From assembly GCA_030426475.1 (NCBI GenBank), contig JAUHYR010000025.1, positions 1-33,454 of the forward strand: DNA of 33,454 bases. Direction: 5' to 3'. A program made the position numbers and the translations under genes. This DNA comes from Bacteroidia bacterium. Its GTDB lineage: Bacteria; Bacteroidota; Bacteroidia; Flavobacteriales_E; Vicingaceae. Below, piece by piece: positions 8,313 to 10,433 of the stretch. Within the stretch, counting starts at the first letter, position 1; every line of letters starts with the position of its first letter. The notes beneath the pieces are model-generated. The model was given only the letters and a program-made list of their open reading frames with translations. It was not told the origin of the DNA and did not search any database.

Positions 8313-9050
8313 TTACTCATTTAATCCCCAGTCGTAATCTAAGTATTCAATTTTTGCTTTCTCATCTATTTTAACAGGAGAATACTGGTTAATGTATTGG
8401 ATAAGAGTCATGTCTTTAGATTTAAAATCCATTCCATACCAGTCAAATATTTTAGAAAGTTTTGGGTTGGTTTTATCTACTTTATTTCTGAATGGGTCTT
8501 TTAAGAAATTTTCTGCCTGGTCTTTGAGTTGAGCATCAAGTTTGTTTCCAACATAGGCTTCATTTCTTAAGATTGGGCATGATTTGGAGGCACAAACCAA
8601 TGCAAAATGAACTCTGGCATCTTTATATTGTTTTCTAAGTTTACCGTGTTCAATATTATTTAAGTCCATTTCTTCACCGTCAATAGTAATGAACTTTATA
8701 TCCCAAGTGCTATTTACAAAAGGTATTTTTCCGCCAATTTCTTTAATACTTTTTACAGGATAGTTGTCACAAATTAATCTTACCGTATAAGCATTGTAGG
8801 CATTAATCCAATAGGCCATGGTCTCATTTTTTTTCCAATCGTTTTTTGGCGGATTTTTTTCTAATTTTCTTAAATAAGTATTTAGTTTTTCAGAGTCTTT
8901 GATAAATCCTTTATAGTTTACTTTTCCTGATGGAGTTACATGTTTTTTTAATAATTCACTCCATTCCTTATGCAAGTCGGTAGGAGGGGATTGAACAAAA
9001 GAAAACAAGACTATTGTTGAAAGTAAAATAGCGGCAAGTAATTTTTTCAT
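8313..9050 (-). CDS. Exported DUF547 protein
   Basis: A 245-residue protein with an N-terminal signal peptide (hydrophobic residues 5-18, cleavage near FVQS). It has DUF547 landmarks: ETMAYWINAYNAYTVRLI, VNSTWDIKFI, LNNIEHGKLR, RVHFALVCASKSCPIL and FLKDPFRN, ending with IFDWYGMDF and LDYDWGLNE. The conserved Cys in VCAS and the Cys in KSCP, with the HFALVCAS histidine, look like a thiol-type active site, but the biochemical function of DUF547 is unknown to me. It precedes the glycosyltransferase by six bases. I see no clear promoter in the 100 bp upstream. Confidence 0.85.
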   Translation of the reverse strand: MKKLLAAILLSTIVLFSFVQSPPTDLHKEWSELLKKHVTPSGKVNYKGFIKDSEKLNTYLRKLEKNPPKNDWKKNETMAYWINAYNAYTVRLICDNYPVKSIKEIGGKIPFVNSTWDIKFITIDGEEMDLNNIEHGKLRKQYKDARVHFALVCASKSCPILRNEAYVGNKLDAQLKDQAENFLKDPFRNKVDKTNPKLSKIFDWYGMDFKSKDMTLIQYINQYSPVKIDEKAKIEYLDYDWGLNE

Positions 9051-9068
9051 GATGTTATGTTTTTATTT

Positions 9069-9102
9069 AAAAGAAAAAATGCTTTGATTTCTCTCAGCAT
9101 TT
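9069..9102 (-). terminator. Rho-independent terminator after sucC and its small gene
   Basis: Minus strand: AAATGCT, a 12-base loop, AGCATTT, then TTTCTTTT. The stem is 7 bp with a good T tract, 53 bp after the small open frame that follows sucC. Confidence 0.6.
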
Positions 9103-9130
9103 AATCCTATAATGTTAAAACAATAAACGT

Positions 9131-9148
9131 TCCAAAAAGAATTTTGGA
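9131..9148. other. Compact hairpin between the sucC small gene and the terminator
   Basis: TCCAAAA and TTTTGGA form a perfect 7 bp stem with loop AGAA. It lacks a T tract on either strand, so it is more likely an mRNA 3'-end structure than a terminator. Confidence 0.35.
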
Positions 9149-9154
9149 TTTGAA

Positions 9155-9238
9155 CTACTGTTTTTTGTTTGTCTTTAAATAATAAACAATTACTCCTACT
9201 AGAGCTCCCACAAGTGCTCCTATAATTATAATTCTCAT
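9155..9238 (-). CDS. Predicted 27-residue single-span membrane peptide behind sucC
   Basis: A short frame starts with ATG at 9238, four bases after the sucC stop codon, and ends in TAG at 9157-9155. The peptide opens with MRIIIIGALVGALVGVIV, one hydrophobic span of about 19 residues carrying a GxxxGxxxG glycine zipper, then YYLKTNKKQ, a positively charged tail that would stay in the cytoplasm. The spacing implies co-transcription and translational coupling with sucC, and a terminator follows. Such small hydrophobic proteins are easily missed. A chance frame is possible, but the membrane span, charged tail and tight spacing together argue for a real gene. Confidence 0.6.
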   Translation of the reverse strand: MRIIIIGALVGALVGVIVYYLKTNKKQ

Positions 9239-9242
9239 AAAC

Positions 9243-10433
9243 CTATGCTAAAACTTCTTTTACTCTGTCAGCCGCTTCTTGTAACAATACCGCTGAGTGA
9301 ACCTGTAAGCCGCTATTGTCAATTAGTTCTTTTGCTTCTTCGGCATTTGTTCCTTGTAAACGAACGATAATAGGAACGTTTATTTCTCCAATGTTTTTAT
9401 AAGCATCTACCACTCCTTGTGCCACTCTGTCACATCTTACAATACCACCAAAAATATTAACCAATATAGCTTTTACATTCGGGTCTTTTAAAATTATCCT
9501 AAATGCCGTTTCTACTCTTTTAGCATCTGCGGTACCACCAACATCTAGAAAGTTAGCCGGGTCACCACCCGAAAGTTTAATGATATCCATGGTAGCCATA
9601 GCTAATCCGGCACCGTTTACCATACAGCCAACGTTTCCATCTAGTTTTACATAGCTTAATCCTGCCTCACCTGCTTCAACTTCCGTAGGGTCTTCTTCAT
9701 GAATATCTCTTAATGCAGCTAAATCTTTATGACGGAATAAGGCATTGTCATCTAAGTTAACTTTAGAGTCAACGGCAATTATCTTGTTGTCAGATGTTTT
9801 TAATACAGGATTAATTTCAAATAATGACGAATCAGTTCCTTCATAAGCTTTATATAAAGCGAAAACAAACTTTACCATTTGTTTGAAAGCATCACCGCTT
9901 AATCCTAAATTGTAAGCAATTTTACGAGCCTGAAAAGCTTGTAAGCCAACACTTGGATCTATCTCTTCTTTAAAAATTAAATGCGGAGTATCATGAGCAA
10001 CTGTTTCAATATCCATACCGCCTTCGGTAGAATACATAATGATGTTTTTGCCTGTAGAACGGTTTAATAAAACACTCATGTAAAATTCAGAAGTTTCACT
10101 TTCTCCCGGATAATAAACGTCTTGTGCTATCAATACTTTTCTAACTAGCTTTCCTTCCGGTCCGGTTTGAGGAGTTACCAGTTGCATACCTAGTATTTTG
10201 CCAGATATTTCTTTTACCTCATCTAACGATTTAGCCAGTTTTACACCACCGCCTTTTCCTCTTCCTCCGGCATGTATTTGGGCTTTAATTACCCACCATT
10301 GCGTTCCGGTTTGTTCTGTTAACTTTTTTGCAGCTTCTACCGCTTGTTCAGGGGTGTCTGCTACAATTCCTTCCTGAATGGCAACGCCATAACCTTTTAA
10401 AACTTCTTTCGCTTGATATTCGTGAATATTCAT
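9243..10433 (-). CDS. sucC: Succinate-CoA ligase (ADP-forming) beta subunit
   Basis: The beta subunit, with SucD, converts succinyl-CoA to succinate with ADP phosphorylation in the TCA cycle. The 396-residue protein is full length: [17 protein letters not shown] start, the ATP-grasp region with [22 protein letters not shown] (metal-binding loop), [27 protein letters not shown] and [11 protein letters not shown]. sucD is not adjacent, as is common in Bacteroidota. It has a strong promoter, an unannotated small gene directly behind it, and a terminator after that. Confidence 0.97.

Follow-up and report, generated by a model that had tools for sequence, protein, structure and literature searches.

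Four bases behind the stop codon of sucC, the gene for the beta subunit of succinyl-CoA synthetase, the minus strand carries a reading frame of 27 codons which is best explained, with a probability of roughly 0.45, as a young, lineage-restricted orphan encoding a small membrane protein or as a passenger. The frame (9238-9155) is real as a feature of the window, by which the whole analysed stretch of 33,454 nucleotides is meant; that it is a small protein is possible, but not proven. Among the loci read, the frame appears to occupy a remodelled sucC junction peculiar to this lineage. The features discussed below are the following.

9243 to 10433, minus strand: sucC, succinyl-CoA synthetase beta subunit, 396 amino acids (Pfam ATP-grasp_2, 3.9e-67; Ligase_CoA, 6.4e-32).
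9155 to 9238, minus strand: 27-codon open reading frame (ORF) with ATG start at 9238 and TAG stop ending at 9155; one predicted membrane span, a GxxxGxxxG pattern and a basic tail.
9185 to 9220, minus strand: imperfect triple repeat of 12 nt, GGAGCACTTGTG / GGAGCTCTAGTA / GGAGTAATTGTT, encoding GALV, GALV and GVIV.
9120 to 9150, minus strand: 31-nt element, consisting of the dyad TCCAAAA-TTCT-TTTTGGA and then ACGTTTATTGT, with a counterpart of 90% identity upstream of a second DUF547 gene.
9073 to 9102, minus strand: A/U-rich hairpin followed by a U tract, folding at -10.4 kcal/mol (z -2.8) and here the probable terminator of the sucC transcript.
8313 to 9050, minus strand: DUF547 gene, 245 amino acids, the downstream neighbour (Pfam DUF547, 7.4e-28).
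C6:5903-6598, same genome: second DUF547 gene, a 48% identical paralogue.

The anatomy described in the initial annotation, namely an ATG four bases past the sucC stop, a single membrane span with glycine zipper and basic tail, and a terminator beyond the ORF, is found as described. The sucC TAG (9243-9245) is followed by the spacer GTTT and the ATG of the ORF, and the encoded peptide, MRIIIIGALVGALVGVIVYYLKTNKKQ, contains one hydrophobic stretch (best 17-residue Kyte-Doolittle (KD) mean 2.82), within which the glycines are spaced as G7-x3-G11-x3-G15 ahead of the basic tail. The U-tailed hairpin starts at 9102, 52 nt past the ORF stop, with a seven-pair stem, mostly A/U (AAATGCT/AGCATTT), and a U-rich tail; a scan for consensus terminators does not report it. 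The C-terminus of sucC itself is complete, as alignments with the relatives' proteins extend as far as residue 395 or 396 out of 396. In the triple repeat the codon list depicts three differences between copies 1 and 2, each at a synonymous third position, an outcome reached by 126 of 5,940 random triple changes upon enumeration.

No relative of the peptide is found. At E<=0.01 the searches return the own genome alone, both among 46 genomes of the family, which include no second genome of the own genus (g1), and among 395 genomes of the class. In 395 genomes of the phylum, matches at E<=0.5 occur in 41, the own genome included; the best of them beyond the ORF itself has an E value of 0.0128, and almost all fall inside longer frames, in membrane spans of other proteins. 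Taken over the own, family, class and phylum genomes, the peptide searches otherwise yield weak matches in spans of mostly long proteins, and NCBIfam gives 13-bit matches at most. A similar frame after sucC is present at none of the 104 other parsed loci. These derive from a set of 110 sucC loci, 30 of them from whole-genome searches (own genome included) and 80 being those listed out of 588 confirmed matches; of the 110 loci, 105 were parsed and L076, L093, L096, L111 and L127 left out. The expectation that the frame is conserved in relatives is thus not borne out in the genomes and loci covered, and, seen in this one genome, the frame can be no more than a small protein specific to the lineage that shares the transcript of sucC. 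In the literature, the searches turned up no description of such a peptide behind sucC, a negative weakened in part by the fact that sucC as a term also matched 'succinate' and similar words.

This distribution bears on the proposal of the initial annotation that the peptide tethers SucC to the membrane or regulates succinyl-CoA synthetase. Small subunits are encoded at the operon ends of membrane enzymes, CydX being an example, and position alone, directly past the sucC stop, would speak for such a role. SucC, however, is a soluble enzyme, the peptide is absent from all other parsed sucC loci, and family relatives whose SucC proteins are 83-87% identical occur without it. In the family loci examined, a terminator-like hairpin directly follows sucC. 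Because such similar enzymes do without the peptide, a need of the enzyme for it is not credible, and a tethering or regulatory function is regarded as extremely unlikely. Of the broader suggestion that a small membrane protein is made together with sucC, the anatomy and the protein-like codons discussed below are retained, while a link to SucC is not supported. The weaker alternative given there, a peptide that simply makes use of the sucC transcript, may hold.

The DNA 3' of sucC does not align with that of relatives. Of 35 family genomes with a match, the own one not counted, 22 were read downstream of sucC, and in all 22 a terminator-like hairpin with four or more consecutive T starts 3-43 nt past the sucC stop. 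The count took T tracts starting up to 110 nt from the stop, and within 110 nt of the own sucC stop no such hairpin is present. In its place the own junction harbors the ORF, the 31-nt element (9150-9120) and the A/U-rich hairpin, in this order, so that the ORF takes up the space from the sucC stop to the element associated with DUF547. The loss of the usual hairpin together with this replacement suggests a remodelled junction peculiar to the lineage. The neighbourhood differs as well: in 9 of the 22 family loci the hairpin is followed by a gene of about 190 codons, by eye apparently the same one (L006, L007, L013, L014, L015, L017, L018, L022 and L023, with the frame broken in L022). A 140-aa stretch of its product gives no match at E<=0.001 in the own genome, an empty answer which on its own shows little. 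The product is a probable membrane protein; its 140 aa, taken from one member, have no Pfam match.

A rearranged junction is also what would be expected if the frame were an amputated N-terminal membrane anchor, that is the 5' end of a larger gene left behind by a deletion and running into a stop after 27 codons. Protein-like codons are in keeping with such an origin, and the weak matches include the N-terminal anchors of long proteins, for instance a 519-aa protein of the own genome on C84 as well as L250 and L255 (about 355 aa), whose anchors share a GLIVYR...NK tail. Against it, nothing outside the own frame matches better than E 0.01, and as only 4 nt separate the ORF stop from the 31-nt element, no further remnant of a gene is seen. 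An anchor of this kind is therefore considered unlikely.

The 31-nt element connects the junction to the DUF547 genes. Its second copy, at C6:6663-6693 (L166, minus strand), precedes the second DUF547 gene by about 65 nt. Each copy comes immediately after a stop, that of a different frame in each case, and ahead of a hairpin with a U tract. Exact TTGGAACGTTTATTG occurs in the genome solely at the two DUF547 loci. The element could serve the DUF547 genes as a promoter or operator combined with a leader terminator; by eye, it is not seen in those upstream regions of the family relatives' DUF547 genes that were listed. The pattern TTGG..CG-N4-TTG, which we take to be a sigma-54 promoter motif, was tried on the element. 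In the own genome its exact form is confined to the two DUF547 loci; with up to one mismatch 41 sites are found vs 59 for the reversed control, and the stricter form, likewise assumed, has no site in a 652-kb sample of the genome. On these counts no sigma-54 regulon is visible.

The folding of this region raises the further alternative that the two-hairpin 3' end of sucC acts as RNA, in the manner of a 3'-derived regulatory RNA in which the ORF would be incidental. Positions 9055-9160 fold better than shuffled sequences (-22.2 kcal/mol, z -3.8), and there is an enteric precedent in SdhX, which the accessible part of its report (PMC6393394) describes as an sRNA derived from the sdhCDAB-sucABCD mRNA at its 3' end. 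The terminator and the dyad nevertheless account for the folding, and conservation does not reach beyond the 31-nt element at one other locus, making a regulatory RNA very unlikely.

Whether the frame could have arisen by chance was judged from a first-order Markov model of the own intergenic DNA with 20,000 simulated 3' ends. Among these simulated ends, 0.235% have an ATG within 10 nt whose frame runs for at least 20 aa and includes a span reaching KD>=1.6; for KD>=2.5, a threshold set after the ORF had been seen, the share is 0.005%. The genome has about 380 such gene ends, a number scaled from 87 in the 652-kb sample, in which gene ends were taken from a simple longest-ORF caller (at least 100 aa) that misses some short genes. 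Per genome, chance is accordingly expected to supply about one TM-like frame at the lower threshold (KD>=1.6) and about 0.02 at the higher one (KD>=2.5). In the sucC loci themselves, a TM-like ATG frame of 20-60 aa within 10 nt of the sucC end is found at 1 of the 104 other parsed loci, namely L022, where an unrelated 46-aa frame starts 9 nt past sucC.

Further short TM-like frames of the same genome are observed 0-8 nt past gene stops at L186 (15525 and 18502) and L170 (5360), all on the minus strand. Judged by eye, one of 54 aa and a glycine-rich one of 57 aa look like real genes, and a 30-aa frame 2 nt past a stop in L186 looks like chance.

The codon composition of the ORF is protein-like, much of this stemming from the short GALV-type repeat. 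Its codon log-odds amount to 0.297 bits per codon, where the two remaining sense frames of the stretch give -0.78 and -0.21 and the three antisense frames -0.34 to -0.67, and the value for the ORF is the top score among the 14 TM-like intergenic frames listed for the genome sample. Of 103,673 simulated chance ORFs, 0.06% attain 0.297, and of the 6,593 simulated TM-like ones none does, but 4.9% of real non-coding open windows, which overlap one another, attain it as well. With the repeat counted once the score drops to 0.145, and without the repeat to 0.018. High GC as a sign of coding is ruled out, as the ORF has a GC content of 29.8%, below the intergenic mean of the genome.

The frame of sucC itself stays open for 59 codons past its TAG (9066-9242, minus strand). 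Readthrough of the TAG was rejected as an explanation for the region, since the score of the sucC frame over the ORF (the value of -0.21 given above) resembles that of non-coding DNA and makes readthrough seem unlikely.

In its initiation context the ORF does not surpass random ATGs. Of the intergenic ATGs, 63% match or exceed its start-context PWM score of -1.38; genes score this low less often, 12.6% of those standing alone and 15.8% of those that are coupled. In F. johnsoniae, A at positions -3, -6, -12 and -13 is reported to favour initiation, according to the accessible part of the study (PMC6847099); from this set the ORF start has A at -6 alone.

A chance ORF in a newly formed 3' untranslated region, with a product of no consequence, would agree with this random-like start context, with the lack of the frame in every relative, with the unrelated frame behind sucC in L022 and with the roughly one such frame expected per genome at the lower KD threshold. 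The protein-like codon content argues against it, as does the strong hydrophobicity at this spacing, for which the expectation is far below one per genome, albeit at the threshold chosen afterwards. On balance, a mere chance frame appears somewhat unlikely.

The preferred reading, a young and lineage-restricted small membrane protein or passenger, would proceed as follows. The frame would have arisen in, or been carried into, the remodelled 3' end of sucC, where the usual terminator and the downstream neighbour were presumably lost and the DUF547 gene with its 31-nt element now adjoins sucC. With the terminator gone, the sucC mRNA would extend across the ORF as far as the hairpin (9102-9073), and ribosomes that have finished sucC at its TAG may reinitiate at the ATG four bases further along. 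We infer that this would yield modest amounts of a 27-residue single-span peptide, which would insert into the membrane probably with its C-terminus inside, given the K-rich end, and could self-associate via its glycine face. Any function would be exerted at the membrane independently of SucC and may be dispensable.

A more demanding variant holds that the membrane peptide was born de novo in the rearranged 3' end of sucC, in that loss of the ancestral terminator allowed the sucC message to reach new DNA, duplications of 12 nt (GALV-GALV-GVIV) grew the glycine zipper, reinitiation provided translation and selection kept the product. This full sequence of events is decidedly unlikely; if true, it would offer a snapshot of the birth of a small protein at the end of a TCA-cycle transcript.

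If translated, the ORF adds one more orphan small membrane protein and would illustrate fairly well how an existing transcript becomes open to a new frame once a terminator is lost. It tells nothing about how succinyl-CoA synthetase works. A start near a stop, one span and a glycine zipper do not make a conserved coupled gene, and this calls for caution.

Among protein families, Gly-zipper_Omp (PF13488), FeoB_associated (PF12669) and YtxH (PF12732) match the glycine-rich span weakly (E 0.014-0.047), below the curated Pfam cut-offs in each case (15.7 vs 25, 15.8 vs 27 and 14.6 vs 37.5 bits, respectively). In length and in having one hydrophobic span, the peptide resembles YohP of E. coli (27 residues), as far as the accessible part of the source describes it (PMC7549839). 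YohP, however, is an established protein, whereas the peptide reported here has no relative and is known from its reading frame alone. SdhX, as portrayed in the part of the paper cited above, is similar in that a second product is obtained downstream of a suc gene from one transcript, but it is enteric and an RNA rather than a peptide.
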